Below, piece after piece: positions 24,752-32,623 of a stretch of 64,000 nt of DNA. The notes beneath the pieces are model-generated. The model saw only the letters and a program-made list of their open reading frames with translations, did no database searches and had not been told where the DNA came from. A program made the translations under genes and the position numbers. Location of the stretch: assembly GCA_004769085.1 (NCBI GenBank), contig DUDS01000015.1, positions 1-64,000 on the forward strand, given 5' to 3'. The DNA is from Candidatus Melainabacteria bacterium SSGW_16. Its GTDB lineage: Bacteria > Cyanobacteriota > Vampirovibrionia > 2-02-FULL-35-15. The stretch's first letter is position 1. Each line of letters starts with the position of its first letter.

Positions 24752-26434
24752 CTAGGTAGTGCCAGGCTGAACACCTTTATTGAACCTGTTTCCGACAAAG
24801 CCTCTTATGGCTCCCAAAACTGATTTAAAGTTTTGTATAAGACCACTAATGCCTAATTTAATATCAAGTTTTGGAAACAAATGAATCATTTTTGCATTTA
24901 ATACGCTTAAAATTTCTTTTCTGAAATTACCTAAATGATCCACTAATAAATCATTCACTGGAGGATTTGCAATCCTTAAGAATCTAATAAGTCCACCAAG
25001 GAAACCTCTCTTAAATACATGAGCAAGTATTGGAATAAACAAATTCTGTATTGAATAAATTAGCCCGAATGTGCTTGTTACTCTTTTAATGGTATCTTCA
25101 CTTATTGAACGAACTCCTTTTACAATACCTAAAATTATTCTTGAAACAACACTTCCTCCAGGGAGATCCTTAAATACTTCGTCTATGTTTGACTTCTCTC
25201 CTTTTTTCAGATAATCACAAAGCTTCTTAATAAAAGTTGGATTCTCAACATACTGAGCTGCAAATTTCTGATAGTTTTTATTTTTACTGGAGAAAAGCCA
25301 TAACATTCCATTTAAAAGCAGGGATGATAATGTAGTATTTTTCCCAAACAATCTTTCAAACGCATCATTTACATCTTTTACTATTCTCTGTAGTCCATAT
25401 TCCTCATGGTTGTAATCGGTAAGTTTAACTTCATCCACTACTACACCCTCAGGGTTCTGAACAACTCCATGTACAGCAGGATTCTTTCTCTCAGTATTAT
25501 TATTTACGAACAAATTGCCTGAAACTGATCTTATACTTCTGACCTCTTTCATTAAATTCCCCAGAAGTTCAGTAAAATAATCACCAATCCATGGATTTAA
25601 AATCACCATCATATTTGCAAATTTTGAAAATAACCCCTTCTGAGAATCTTCCTTTTCATTAATAAACCATGGCATTAAAATATTCTGCGCAGTAAATACT
25701 ACAGGGAATATACTCACAATCCAGTCTGGCAAGCCGCTACTTATACCTATAATTTTTGAAGAAAGTTTAGCAATTTCTTTTTTCTGTCCAGCATTATCAT
25801 CTTCCTGAAATGCAGTGTGAAGATATGATTCTGCTTTTCCCCTGTCAGTTCTCTTAAGCCTAAGATACTCAGTGAATACTTTTACAAAAGCAGGATCCTT
25901 CAGCATTTTATCTATTTTCTGCGGGATGGATTCTTTCCCATCATCTTCTATCCCAAGCCTCTGCAAATACATTAATAGCATCCATGCAGAAGAACTTGTT
26001 CTTCTATCGTATACACGGCTAAGCATGTCAGAAATATTCCTAAGCAGGTCATGAACTTTCTGTTCATCATTTGAAAAGCCTAAAAATCTATCTGTTGCTT
26101 CTATAACATATGCAGTATTTGGATTTAAATCTTTTCCCTGTTTTTGATCACTTAAATCAATGCTTTTCCCCTGTAAATTTTCAGGAGTCATTAAACCATC
26201 GGTAAATTCTTTCCCTTTGGTACTGCCGAATTGAAGAATATATCTCCCGGGACTAATAGCCGAAGGAGTAAATCTTACCTCATCAGGTTGTAATTCCCCC
26301 TTTGTGTCAACTTTTACTGCTTCAATTTTATCTACTTTCTCAGCCTCTCCAACAGGCACAAAAAGCCTTAGCCTGGTGCGAACCTGATCACTCCCGCTTC
26401 TTAAAACTGAAACTGATTTTAATGCCTGTACCAT
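24752..26434 (-). CDS. Hypothetical protein with an internal duplication (560 aa)
   Basis: I do not recognise the family. An N-terminal beta-rich part (about 1-115) precedes two similar alpha-helical units at roughly residues 140-315 and 370-545. Matching blocks include AQNILMPWF versus IQNLFIPIL, then ILNPWIGDYFTELLGNLMKEVRSI versus IANPPVNDLLVDHLGNFRKEILSV, and FVKVFTEYL versus FIKKLCDYL upstream of them. The helices are amphipathic with hydrophobic faces; no signal peptide is apparent. ATG at 26434, with a long inverted repeat in the leader 16 bp upstream. Possibly membrane-associated structural protein; function unknown. Confidence 0.8.
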   Translation of the reverse strand: MVQALKSVSVLRSGSDQVRTRLRLFVPVGEAEKVDKIEAVKVDTKGELQPDEVRFTPSAISPGRYILQFGSTKGKEFTDGLMTPENLQGKSIDLSDQKQGKDLNPNTAYVIEATDRFLGFSNDEQKVHDLLRNISDMLSRVYDRRTSSSAWMLLMYLQRLGIEDDGKESIPQKIDKMLKDPAFVKVFTEYLRLKRTDRGKAESYLHTAFQEDDNAGQKKEIAKLSSKIIGISSGLPDWIVSIFPVVFTAQNILMPWFINEKEDSQKGLFSKFANMMVILNPWIGDYFTELLGNLMKEVRSIRSVSGNLFVNNNTERKNPAVHGVVQNPEGVVVDEVKLTDYNHEEYGLQRIVKDVNDAFERLFGKNTTLSSLLLNGMLWLFSSKNKNYQKFAAQYVENPTFIKKLCDYLKKGEKSNIDEVFKDLPGGSVVSRIILGIVKGVRSISEDTIKRVTSTFGLIYSIQNLFIPILAHVFKRGFLGGLIRFLRIANPPVNDLLVDHLGNFRKEILSVLNAKMIHLFPKLDIKLGISGLIQNFKSVLGAIRGFVGNRFNKGVQPGTT

Positions 26435-26756: not shown

Positions 26757-27989
26757 ATGAGTAAGGTAGTTGTAATTGGAGGTTGTGGACGAACAGGGTT
26801 TAGATTTTCATTGATTGCTGCTAACAAAGGACATAATGTAGTAAGTATTGATCTTGATGAAGAAAAAATACATGAGATAAAACAGGGTAACCTTCCTTTT
26901 GTAGAGAAGGATGGAGAAATATATTTAGAGCAGGCATTAAAGAAAAAACTTCTTGCAGTTACTTCAGACTATAAATCAATTGAGAAATCAGAAGTAGTTG
27001 TTATTGCAGTAAGTACACCTGTGGATTCGAATTTAAATCCAAGTCTTGAACCAGTTGCAGGAGTGGTTTTCGATATCGCACCATATCTGAAAGAAAATCA
27101 GCTCATAATTTTCAGGAGCATATTATCACCTGTTGTAATTGAAAGAATAAAGACTCTTATAGAAGATAAAACAGGGTTTAAAATCGGCAAGAATTTAAAT
27201 CTTGCTTTTGCACCAGAAATGTATGATGAAAATTCAAACATTCATTCACTTGCAAATTCAAATCAGCCAGTAGGAGCATATGATGAAGAAAGTTTCGTAG
27301 CTGCTGAAGGATTCTTTAAAACAATTACAAAAGGAAAAATAAGCTGGCTCACACCTGAAGAAGCAATGCTTTCAAAATTAATGAAAAATATGCATTTTTA
27401 TATACAAAATGCAACTGCAAATGAATTTTATCTAATAGCTGAAAGCTACAAAGCTAACATTCATAAAATTCTTGATGCAATCCAGTGGAAATTACCTAAC
27501 CCAAATCCAAACAGCTCAGGACCAGGAACACATAAAGAAGGATGGTTCCTTGTTGATCGAATTCCTTTTGGAGAGCTCATAACAACAGCATTTAAGATAA
27601 ACGAATCAATGCCCACTCTTATTGTTCAGAAGCTTGAAAATTATAAAATAAACAAAGTAGCAATTCTGGGCATGTCAAACTGGGCAGACTCTGATGATTA
27701 CAGGTCGTCCTTAAGCTACAAACTAAGAAAACTACTCTACTATAAAAACTATACTGTGGGTTGTTATGATCCATATTTGCCTGAATATTCTGATTCATCG
27801 GTTATTCACAAATCAGATGCAGTCATACTCATGACTCCTCACAAAGAATTCGAAAACTTAAACCGGATAAAAGAAATGGTAAAAAATCCAAACTGTGTTT
27901 ATATAGATCTTAAAGGTTTCTGGAAAGAAACAAGTGAAAAGGGTGTAAACGGGATATGGCAGGCAAAGGAAGGAAAAGTAAAAAAGTAA
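26757..27989 (+). CDS. Nucleotide-sugar dehydrogenase homologue (UDP-Glc/GDP-Man DH family), catalytic Cys not seen
   Basis: The 410-residue protein has the family layout: N-terminal Rossmann domain (VVVIGGCGRTGFRFSLIAANKGHNVVSID), VVVIAVSTPVD, a central helical domain (SKLMKNMHFYIQNATANEF, keeping the Lys/Asn pair), and a C-terminal domain (KVAILGMSNWADSDDYRSSLS). In active enzymes the central segment reads GxGGxCxPxD. Here the corresponding segment reads GPGTHKEGWFLVD (residues 255-267), with Trp263 about where the catalytic Cys belongs. The usual PExxxxG substrate motif reads APEMYDENS. Four-electron oxidation through a Cys thioester therefore looks unlikely, and it may have another activity. 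GGTGG precedes ATG 26757. The secreted 86-aa gene follows by 14 bp. Confidence 0.8.
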   Translation: MSKVVVIGGCGRTGFRFSLIAANKGHNVVSIDLDEEKIHEIKQGNLPFVEKDGEIYLEQALKKKLLAVTSDYKSIEKSEVVVIAVSTPVDSNLNPSLEPVAGVVFDIAPYLKENQLIIFRSILSPVVIERIKTLIEDKTGFKIGKNLNLAFAPEMYDENSNIHSLANSNQPVGAYDEESFVAAEGFFKTITKGKISWLTPEEAMLSKLMKNMHFYIQNATANEFYLIAESYKANIHKILDAIQWKLPNPNPNSSGPGTHKEGWFLVDRIPFGELITTAFKINESMPTLIVQKLENYKINKVAILGMSNWADSDDYRSSLSYKLRKLLYYKNYTVGCYDPYLPEYSDSSVIHKSDAVILMTPHKEFENLNRIKEMVKNPNCVYIDLKGFWKETSEKGVNGIWQAKEGKVKK

Positions 27990-28003: not shown

Positions 28004-28264
28004 ATGAAAAACGTTCTTTCTTATATAGCTTTTGCTTATTGTCTATTATTAATCCTATATCCTAGCAAAGTACACTCCCAACAAAATATACAATGGGCAT
28101 GCGATACTAAACATATCTGTTTTTATGATGTAGGAATTAACGGATACAATGGTGTTTGCTTTGAAGTAAGAGAAGGTGATGAAAGATTAAACGATACAGA
28201 TCGCTATAAAATAGTTGGCGATCATTGTGATGATAGTAACTGTGACTCTACTTGTAAACAATAA
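28004..28264 (+). CDS. Small Cys-rich secreted protein (86 aa)
   Basis: A signal peptide of about 25 residues (MKNVLSYIAFAYCLLLILYP, cleavage near VHSQ) is followed by a 60-residue acidic mature part with six cysteines (ACDTKHIC, GVC, HCDDSNCDSTC) that could form disulfides. AAAGGAG lies 6 nt before the ATG, indicating real translation. It is probably cotranscribed with the dehydrogenase homologue. I do not recognise a family. Confidence 0.8.
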   Translation: MKNVLSYIAFAYCLLLILYPSKVHSQQNIQWACDTKHICFYDVGINGYNGVCFEVREGDERLNDTDRYKIVGDHCDDSNCDSTCKQ

Positions 28265-30626: not shown

Positions 30627-31682
30627 ATGCCACCTATTTCCAATGTCCCAAGCATCACTGCTTCTGCAGGCTCACAGTCTCGCAGAACTAATCTGTCTGG
30701 TTCACGAGATCAATATATCCGGCAATACCCAGTAGCCTCCCCGGATGAAGAAGAAATCAAATCAAAAAAACTTTTAAATTATGTTACTAATGGCGGTGCA
30801 GCATTATTAAACCTTCTTCACTTCATAAACAGCAACTGGAATTTTTCAGATTTTCTAAAAGATAAATTGGGATTTGCAAGCAGCCTTATGACCAGAGCAG
30901 CTGTTATAAGTCAAGGAATTATTCTTACCAATGAAACATGGAATGCAAAGAATTTAATACCATTTATTGGTTCTGTAAGTGAAATTCCTATTGCTCTTCT
31001 TAGCAGTGATGACAATATCTGGTTTAATCGCGGCTGGTCACAAGGACTAGGGCAATTTTACTCAATGATTGCTAAGCGGCATATAAAACAAAACGGAGAA
31101 TCTATTTTTGACACTGAAGGAAAACCCATCTGCATGAATCCTGACTTTAGTAAGCAAAATTTACATGGACTTATAGAAAGTACCAAAGTTACACTTAGAG
31201 AGTCAGGAAAAATAGTTTCAGAATTAATCAAAGAGCCAAGAAATCTTCTTAATTACTCACATTCAATTTTTGTTGCTTCAGCAGGGCAAATTACCGGTAC
31301 ATTACTAGGTGTATTCGGACTAACAAATACCGGAGCCATAATAAGGGATATCTTTGGAACTTTTGTTGATTTTGCACTTACCAGAGACGATGAAAATAAA
31401 AAGCAAGTTGTTGGTTCAGAACCTCAAAGAGTAAAACATAAACTTTTCAATTTAGATTTTTCATCAACCTTTGTCTGGAGCGGATTAACCTGGGTGCTGG
31501 CTGCAGTTGTTGATGCCTATAAACGCATACCATTCTTATCAGATACTCAAGAAGCACTTACAAATCTGTCTCTCACATCAGACCGCTTTGCATCAATGCT
31601 TTATACAGAAGCAAATCTAAATATTAAACAAGAAAAAGTAAGGAAAGAAAAGGAAAGACTTGCTTTAGGAGTAGCTGCATAA
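30627..31682 (+). CDS. Hypothetical protein, first of a tandem paralogue pair (351 aa)
   Basis: I do not recognise the family. The protein has a Ser-rich polar N-terminal 50 residues and then several moderately hydrophobic helices (NGGAALLNLLHFI, LIPFIGSVSEIPIALLSS, SIFVASAGQITGTLLGVFG, FVWSGLTWVLAAVVDAYKRIPFLSD). It ends in a charged helix (EKVRKEKERLALG). The same order of blocks occurs in the next gene: EIPIAL, GLGQFYSMIAKRHIKQ, GAIIRDIFGTFVDFALT, WVLAAVVDAYK and DRFA. Start ATG 30627. It may be membrane-associated. The second copy begins 11 bp after the stop. Confidence 0.8.
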   Translation: MPPISNVPSITASAGSQSRRTNLSGSRDQYIRQYPVASPDEEEIKSKKLLNYVTNGGAALLNLLHFINSNWNFSDFLKDKLGFASSLMTRAAVISQGIILTNETWNAKNLIPFIGSVSEIPIALLSSDDNIWFNRGWSQGLGQFYSMIAKRHIKQNGESIFDTEGKPICMNPDFSKQNLHGLIESTKVTLRESGKIVSELIKEPRNLLNYSHSIFVASAGQITGTLLGVFGLTNTGAIIRDIFGTFVDFALTRDDENKKQVVGSEPQRVKHKLFNLDFSSTFVWSGLTWVLAAVVDAYKRIPFLSDTQEALTNLSLTSDRFASMLYTEANLNIKQEKVRKEKERLALGVAA

Positions 31683-31693
31683 AGTTGAGCACT

Positions 31694-32623
31694 ATGGCAA
31701 TTACAGGAGTGGCTCCTTATGGCGGACAAAGCCCTGCCGGTCAAAGCTTCTTAAGTGATAGATTTAAAACTAATGTAAATCTTACTTTTAACGGAATAGC
31801 ATCTGCTGCAAATTTACTTACAACACTTAATGGCAATTTGTTCGCTGGAAATAGTCTTCAGGAAGGGCTGGAAACAACAAGCGCTTTTTGTTCAAAAACT
31901 GCAACTGCAGTGCAGGGACTTTTAAATGGAATTATAGCGTTTGAGAAAAAAAACCTACTTGCAATGATTGGAGGCCTTTTAGAATTACCAATAGCTTTTT
32001 CTGTAAAAGGTTTTAACTTATTTCTAGCAAGAGGAATCTCTGCTGGTCTAAATCAGTTTGACAGTATAATTAGTAGAACAATAAAGCAAGGCAAAGATGG
32101 GAAATTTATAGAAATTGCAGGTAAAAAACAACATTACGATAGCTTTAAAAAAGAAGGATGGATTGAAGGACTTAAAATTATTGGCAAGAATTTCCCCAGA
32201 TTAATTAAAGAACTTTATCCAAACCCTTTTAAAAGTTCCGAATTATTCCCTAGGACATTTTTACTGTGTTCAATATTCATGATACTTGGACCTATAATTT
32301 CACTGGCAGGGAATTTCGTACCTGGACTTTATAAGCTCGGTGCAACAGTCAGGCATGTATTTGGTGGTCTTGCAGCAGTATCACTTACAACAGACAAGAA
32401 AACAAACACAAATATAAAACAACAAAAAGAAGGCAAAGCAAAAGGCATATCAAAATATGCTGCCTCGGGAATATTTTGGGTACTTGCAGCAATCCCGGAT
32501 GTACTAAAGCACTATGACTTTTTCTCAGACAGAATAAAAAACGGTACAGAACTAGCATTATGTTTTGATCGTTTAGGTGGATTCTTCTTTATTCGTGGTA
32601 ATCAAAGAGCAGGAGAAAAGTAA
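31694..32623 (+). CDS. Hypothetical protein, second of a tandem paralogue pair (309 aa)
   Basis: Paralogue of the preceding gene, with aligned blocks ELPIAF, GLNQFDSIISRTIKQ, GATVRHVFGGLAAVSLT, WVLAAIPDVLKHYDFFSD and CFDRLGGFFF. It lacks the long polar N-terminus of copy one. I start at ATG 31694; a TTG at 31685 is in frame. Helices around residues 185-215 (FLLCSIFMILGPIISLAGNFVPG) look membrane-spanning or hairpin-like. The pair probably forms one transcript and possibly one complex. Function unknown. Confidence 0.8.
   Translation: MAITGVAPYGGQSPAGQSFLSDRFKTNVNLTFNGIASAANLLTTLNGNLFAGNSLQEGLETTSAFCSKTATAVQGLLNGIIAFEKKNLLAMIGGLLELPIAFSVKGFNLFLARGISAGLNQFDSIISRTIKQGKDGKFIEIAGKKQHYDSFKKEGWIEGLKIIGKNFPRLIKELYPNPFKSSELFPRTFLLCSIFMILGPIISLAGNFVPGLYKLGATVRHVFGGLAAVSLTTDKKTNTNIKQQKEGKAKGISKYAASGIFWVLAAIPDVLKHYDFFSDRIKNGTELALCFDRLGGFFFIRGNQRAGEK

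Follow-up and report, generated by a model that had tools for sequence, protein, structure and literature searches.

The closest described relatives of the protein considered here are the NDP-sugar dehydrogenases (NDP-SDHs; among them UDPGDH, UDPNAMDH and GDPMDH), which use NAD to oxidise an NDP-sugar twice, to its uronate. In their canonical reaction an Asp264-activated water starts the first oxidation while Lys204 and Asn208 stabilise the substrate. A thiohemiacetal and a thioester then form on Cys260 (PMC4794789). In the second oxidation the Cys acts as covalent catalyst, Tyr10 catalyses hydrolysis of the thioester, and in the published set of 229 NDP-SDHs the Cys is invariant (PMC4794789). 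Cys mutants of UDP-glucose 6-dehydrogenase (UGDH) are known from the laboratory; human UGDH C276A is reported to oxidise the aldehyde intermediate but to be unable to complete the reaction from UDP-glucose (PMC3184952). This mutant is the closest laboratory counterpart of the protein described below, and among open-licence PMC papers we recognised none on a Cys-less NDP-sugar dehydrogenase.

The window, by which we mean the whole 64,000-nucleotide stretch of Candidatus Melainabacteria bacterium SSGW_16 that was analysed, contains a 410-codon reading frame that is a genuine gene, with a plausible candidate ribosome-binding site, GAAAGGGTGG, read by eye upstream of its start. No terminator-like site was found around the gene, and promoter-like sites were fewer there than in shuffled sequence. 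Its product scores 221.8 bits against TIGR03026 (nucleotide sugar dehydrogenase; cut-off 189.8) over residues 5-380, while the central Pfam domain reaches 20.0 bits, below the cut-off of 25.4. Within its PF03721 domain the protein retains GGCGRTG, D32 and T87. Its anatomy, substitutions, conservation and ancestry could be observed directly, and the coordinates are collected in Table 1.

Table 1. Features of the Cys-less dehydrogenase homologue and its surroundings in the window
Feature	Positions	Strand	Remarks
CDS, Cys-less NDP-sugar-dehydrogenase homologue	26757..27989	+	410 aa, ATG start; ORF limits exact
NAD-binding domain, Pfam PF03721, residues 3-179	26763..27293	+	99.3 bits against a cut-off of 27
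C-terminal UDP-binding domain, PF03720, residues 302-390	27660..27926	+	45.9 bits against a cut-off of 30
Arg12 at the Tyr10 position	26790..26792	+	Arg in 10/10 orthologues
Ile122 at the Thr118 position	27120..27122	+	Orthologues: Thr 6, Ile 3, Ala 1 (n=10)
Lys207 and Asn211, equivalents of Lys204/Asn208	27375..27389	+	Kept in 10/10 orthologues
Active-site loop GPG-T-HKEGW, residues 255-263	27519..27545	+	From alignments with relatives and canonical sequences
Gly257 at the Cys260 position	27525-27527	+	Active-site loop
Glu261 at the Asp264 position	27537-27539	+	Active-site loop
Trp263	27543-27545	+	Active-site loop, which also contains His259 and Lys260
Trp309 (TGG) at the diphosphate-binding Lys320 position	27681..27683	+	Window copy only; Lys in 8/8 other orthologues reaching the position
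Surrounding genes			HisC-like aminotransferase; MJ1255-like glycosyltransferase (below family cut-off); pstB; HldE2-like nucleotidyltransferase; 560-aa gene; ilvB

An AlphaFold2 model built with 38 distant relatives (mean pLDDT 88.3, pTM 0.86) confirmed the NDP-SDH fold, in line with the structural check that the original prediction had proposed. The first 40 structural matches listed are NDP-sugar dehydrogenases (Z 29.3-42.5), and the next fold families begin at Z 19.2; Foldseek agrees. Therefore, by its TIGR03026 score and by the match of its model to solved NDP-SDHs, the window protein is an NDP-SDH homologue. Residue-level geometry of the active site rests on a loop of low confidence, with mean pLDDT of 61 for residues 251-260 and 71 for residues 261-270, the lowest confidence anywhere outside the C-terminal tail, so that side-chain geometry cannot be argued from it; in the model the helix that follows the loop begins at residue 258. 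The top match, the Pyrococcus horikoshii UDP-N-acetyl-mannosamine dehydrogenase (4r16; Z 42.5, rmsd 2.2 over 390 residues, 26% identity), has the same Lys/Asn pair, but it carries the catalytic Cys and Asp (GGHCLPKD) where the window protein reads SGPGTHKE. Similarly, the UDP-glucose 6-dehydrogenases of S. pyogenes and human share the fold and the first-half residues, whereas identity is 20% (1dli/1dlj) and the natural enzyme oxidises twice through its Cys.

The segment that aligns with the active site, GPGTHKEGWFLVD (residues 255-267, positions 27519-27557), had been thought to carry Trp where the Cys is expected. Three alignments built by different routes, with the closest relatives, with 38 canonical sequences, and by phmmer with the best-scoring solved structure (4r16), place Cys260 of S. 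pyogenes UGDH opposite Gly257 and Asp264 opposite Glu261, with Trp263 two residues beyond. For example, the nearest-relative alignment sets the window loop SGPGTHKEG opposite AGPCLFKDT, and the loop of a Halobaculum relative, GGPCLRKDGWF, aligns without gaps to SGPGTHKEGWF; because the Halobaculum loop has both Cys and Trp, it fixes the register. A phmmer alignment with Cap5O (3ojl) partly disagrees with the other three in that its loop is gapped and the Cys falls opposite a gap, yet Glu261 still stands opposite the catalytic Asp there, and Trp263 opposite the residue at +2. The catalytic Cys is indeed absent, as had been claimed, but the Trp belongs to a wrong register: Gly257 holds the Cys position, Trp263 is an ordinary downstream residue, and its candidacy as a Cys substitute is ruled out by the alignment. 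Cys stands at the catalytic position in 38 of 38 canonical sequences and in none of the ten orthologues of the window family.

Another Cys in the active site had been named as what would speak against the loss. The window protein has three, none of them in the Cys260 column: C10 is a residue of the NAD loop and is Ala in one of ten orthologues; C336 is present in all nine orthologues with a complete C-terminus and also in two of six Cys-bearing relatives; C380 lies in the C-terminal domain and is likewise found in 9/9 of the complete orthologues. It is unlikely that one of these replaces Cys260 in function.

Measured against the 18 invariant residues of the published NDP-SDH set (PMC4794789), the window protein keeps 12 (G7, G9, G12, T83, S117, P140, E141, K204, N208, N219, G258 and N287 in canonical numbering) and changes six (T118 to Ile, E201 to Met, G257 to Ser, C260 to Gly, D264 to Glu, K320 to Trp). 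Across the ten orthologues Cys260 is always Gly and Asp264 always its conservative replacement Glu; Glu201 is lost in all ten, to differing residues; Ser117 has become Asn in nine, while Thr118 survives in six, Gly at the canonical Gly257 position in two, and Lys320 in eight of the nine reaching that position. The changes at Asp264, Glu201, Ser117 and Thr118 carry the loss further than the original prediction had it. The retention of the NAD-binding domain and the central Lys/Asn that it had described was borne out (G9xG11xxG14, D32, T87; K207, N211); indeed G9, G11, G14 and D32, the last equivalent to Asp29, occur in 10/10 orthologues, as does Glu141 together with Lys204 and Asn208. The loop itself is equally constant, G257, H259, E261, G262 and W263 each being present in ten of ten. 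As judged from these aligned orthologues, the family has lost its covalent nucleophile, holds the NAD site and the Lys/Asn pair constant, and has fixed a new loop (HKEGW). In terms of membership, the protein is classed as a homologue of the NDP-sugar dehydrogenases and is not counted among their functional members.

The family is not confined to one genome. Orthologues at 59-69% identity to the window copy occur in nine further genomes; counting the window's own, 10 of the 11 genomes examined from the order carry the gene. The eleventh (79% complete) lacks it and also both flanking genes tested, suggesting a gap in its assembly. All four GGN codons are used for Gly257 among the ten orthologues, and this same Gly in ten genomes excludes the sequencing error that had been raised as a possible objection. 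None of the ten has an in-frame internal stop, the TAA in G006 being the natural end. Values of dN/dS (Nei-Gojobori, own script) were 0.05-0.19 in 42 of 45 orthologue pairs, with every finite dS above 1 and the remaining three pairs undefined through saturation; these rates indicate that the gene is under purifying selection. The window copy has 11 singleton changes, no outlier within the range of 1-15 among nine copies, and its specific residues are Trp309 and Ser121, Ile122 being common to two of the nine others. Its mean identity to the other loci is 65%, comparable to that of the HldE2-like gene (66%); the glycosyltransferase (71%), the HisC-like protein (75%), a VTT protein (81%), IlvB (83%) and PstB (85%) are more conserved and the 560-aa gene is less so (32%), making the dehydrogenase homologue the second least conserved of eight locus genes compared.

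In a tree of 56 proteins the ten Cys-less proteins form one clade (support 100/100) that joins the Halobaculum halophilum plasmid protein WP_179171592.1 (97/84) and then 22 'GPC' NDP-sugar dehydrogenases of the same class (f2, f5 and f7), the whole group again at 100/100. These sisters resemble the window family in the Arg at 120, the GP before the active residue and Lys260, but unlike it they retain Cys and Asp, in 23 of 23; the count and the tree exclude L182, which ends before the loop. Since all 23 nearest relatives with a readable loop have the Cys, a single loss on the family stem, in the order's ancestor, is the simplest history and the probable one. The Halobaculum sequence sits on a long branch and is unusual in composition, so its position beside the family is less secure than the single loss itself. 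A joint loss of Tyr10, canonical Gly257 and Cys260 was considered and dropped, because the Cys-bearing class relatives have also changed at the first two (His in 20 and Arg in 2 of 22 at the Tyr10 position, Ala at the canonical Gly257 position); these two changes are therefore earlier or independent and are no marker of loss of the covalent step. Specific to the family, when compared with the Cys-bearing sisters, are window Gly257, His259 and Glu261, the loss of Glu201, the change of Ser117 to Asn, and a variable Thr118.

A search for homologues with the same substitution, as had been suggested, found Gly in all ten orthologues of the window's order. The motif pattern matched in eight of the 386 genomes sampled from the phylum, each time in the window family, and loops were inspected at 43 of 50 listed relative loci (within 57 distinct proteins), the other seven all lying in family f3 (E 1e-35 to 1e-42). 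The family's own profiles found no relative in viral contigs; the best plasmid match had 31.5% identity, phage matches 21.7-25.6% (best 10 of 15), and one scan of genome contigs gave one relative at 27%. Two other departures were noticed in these comparisons. A UDP-glucose-dehydrogenase-type protein of another family of the class, L028 (G056:C166:31952-33175, minus strand), has Phe at the Cys position (loop GGIFFPKD), PQ in place of PE and Arg in place of Lys320; this separate Cys loss was seen in one genome only. A divergent group of NDP-sugar dehydrogenases, L183 (G006), L184 (G010) and L027 (G048), keeps the Cys (GGHCTPVYPY) and has Tyr at Asp264, Met at Asn208 and Arg at Lys320, a pattern nearly the reverse of that in the window family.

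With the Cys gone and the first-half machinery kept, a single oxidation, an isomerisation (or epimerisation) or a structural role are reasonable, and to this extent the options originally put forward stand, apart from the detail of the Trp. The best-supported of the readings, which we hold tentatively, is that the window protein may be an NAD(H)-dependent two-electron NDP-sugar oxidoreductase that interconverts a C6 alcohol and the aldehyde. Because C276A oxidises the aldehyde, hydride transfer is still possible at a site without the Cys. The Cys-bearing UGDH-type paralogue in all 11 genomes also counts for this reading; the sub-threshold central Pfam domain, the low-confidence loop, the absence of a recognised pathway partner beside the gene and its low rank in conservation among the locus genes count against it. 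In such an enzyme Lys207 and Asn211 would polarise the substrate oxygen, Glu261 in place of Asp264 would serve as acid/base, and NAD would accept or donate the hydride; with no Cys, neither thiohemiacetal nor thioester would form. The covalent half-reaction would then have been lost once in the order's ancestor, while the fold, the NAD site and the hydride-transfer residues would have stayed under selection. We infer that an NDP-sugar is bound, and the direction, substrate and product likewise; indeed, with Glu201 lost, Thr118 variable and Lys320 replaced by Trp in the window copy, NDP-sugar binding itself may have changed.

The main rival to a two-electron oxidoreductase is a pseudoenzyme that binds NAD(H), an NDP-sugar or both and acts as a sensor, regulator or non-catalytic partner, for example of a UGDH-type paralogue. 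Change at six of 18 invariants in the window copy, Cys260, Asp264, Glu201 and Lys320 among them, is what one might expect of such a protein, purifying selection is compatible with a binding role, and a possible partner exists in the UGDH-type paralogue of all 11 genomes. A pure binder, however, would have no need of Lys204, Asn208, Glu141 and a carboxylate at 264, which are present in 10/10, and His259 and Glu261 are newly fixed; on balance we consider the pseudoenzyme unlikely. Full four-electron oxidation without covalent catalysis, in which the aldehyde hydrate would be oxidised directly, possibly with His259/Glu261 as base, to give a uronic acid, appears improbable. Four-electron oxidation without a covalent Cys is known from histidinol dehydrogenase, which counts for this proposal. 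Human UGDH C276A supports it in oxidising the aldehyde, but speaks against it in failing, as reported, to complete the reaction from UDP-glucose (PMC3184952). Thr118 is variable, moreover, and a Cys-bearing UGDH-type paralogue is already there in each of the 11 genomes. An epimerase-like reaction, with transient oxidation and then reduction of a ring carbon and NAD retained, would draw on the NAD site and acid/base residues that are kept, and the changed loop residues may allow the sugar to sit differently; we know of no precedent for it in the NDP-SDH fold family, the low-confidence geometry of the loop cannot be judged, and we regard it as quite improbable. An ordinary NDP-sugar dehydrogenase gene that is decaying or has been mis-sequenced, to which the residues peculiar or nearly peculiar to the window copy (Trp309, Ser121, Ile122) might point, can be dismissed as having almost no likelihood, and a pseudogene is ruled out, given Gly in ten of ten genomes, intact frames, dN/dS below 0.2, 59-69% identity to the window copy, overall identity like that of the HldE2-like gene and an unexceptional number of singleton changes.

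Returning to the two-electron oxidoreductase, it is possible, though rather doubtful, that the order as a whole has natural 'half-reaction' NDP-sugar dehydrogenases, with Arg12, Gly257, His259, Glu261 and Trp263 re-fixed, that make or consume C6 aldehydes (dialdoses). If true, the family would handle an intermediate that ordinary enzymes are not known to release. A conserved natural lineage without Cys and Asp264 is a ready experiment on the residues that each half-reaction needs, and it bears as well on the aldehyde as a released product and on sugar-nucleotide chemistry possibly added beside the UGDH-type enzyme in these bacteria. Automatic annotation as 'nucleotide sugar dehydrogenase', for which the TIGR03026 threshold is passed, may imply the wrong reaction.

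The UGDH-type paralogue, with Cys in a GGSC loop, is found in every one of the order's 11 genomes (L003 in the window's own genome, and ten others), and L002 is a further Cys-bearing paralogue beside L003; these proteins are predicted to be working UDP-glucose dehydrogenases. Around the Cys-less gene we recognised no pathway partner, the neighbours being mixed in strand and suggesting no one pathway. Their arrangement is nevertheless stable, with the 560-aa gene upstream in 10/10 loci, pstB and the HldE2-like gene in 9/9 with enough flank, and ilvB downstream in 8/9. In five of five sister 'GPC' loci of the class that were examined, a gene of one cluster adjoins the dehydrogenase; two of the five were scanned, and both encode SDR-type sugar-nucleotide enzymes, below any family's cut-off. 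The neighbour of the Halobaculum dehydrogenase is annotated as a GDP-mannose 4,6-dehydratase. No SDR-type neighbour was seen at the window-family loci, and relatives of the sister-group SDR occur in nine of the 11 family genomes (E 1e-20 or better), distant at 28-34% identity.

Several neighbours deserve mention in their own right. The 560-aa protein (24752-26434, minus strand), for which Pfam gave no match at E 0.01, is the divergent upstream neighbour in all ten loci; it shares only 28-38% identity with its counterparts, so that the gene keeps its place while its sequence changes fast. Fourteen bases past the dehydrogenase-like gene lies an 86-aa Cys-rich reading frame with a signal-peptide-like start (28004-28264, plus strand); none was recognised within 500 bases of the orthologue in L034, L036, L038 and L039, and small Cys-rich, secreted-looking frames also follow it in L035, L037, L040 and L041. 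Further downstream, on the plus strand, two adjoining genes encode related proteins (30627-31682, with no Pfam match at E 0.01, and 31685-32623) that belong to a cluster with 16 members in the compared loci.
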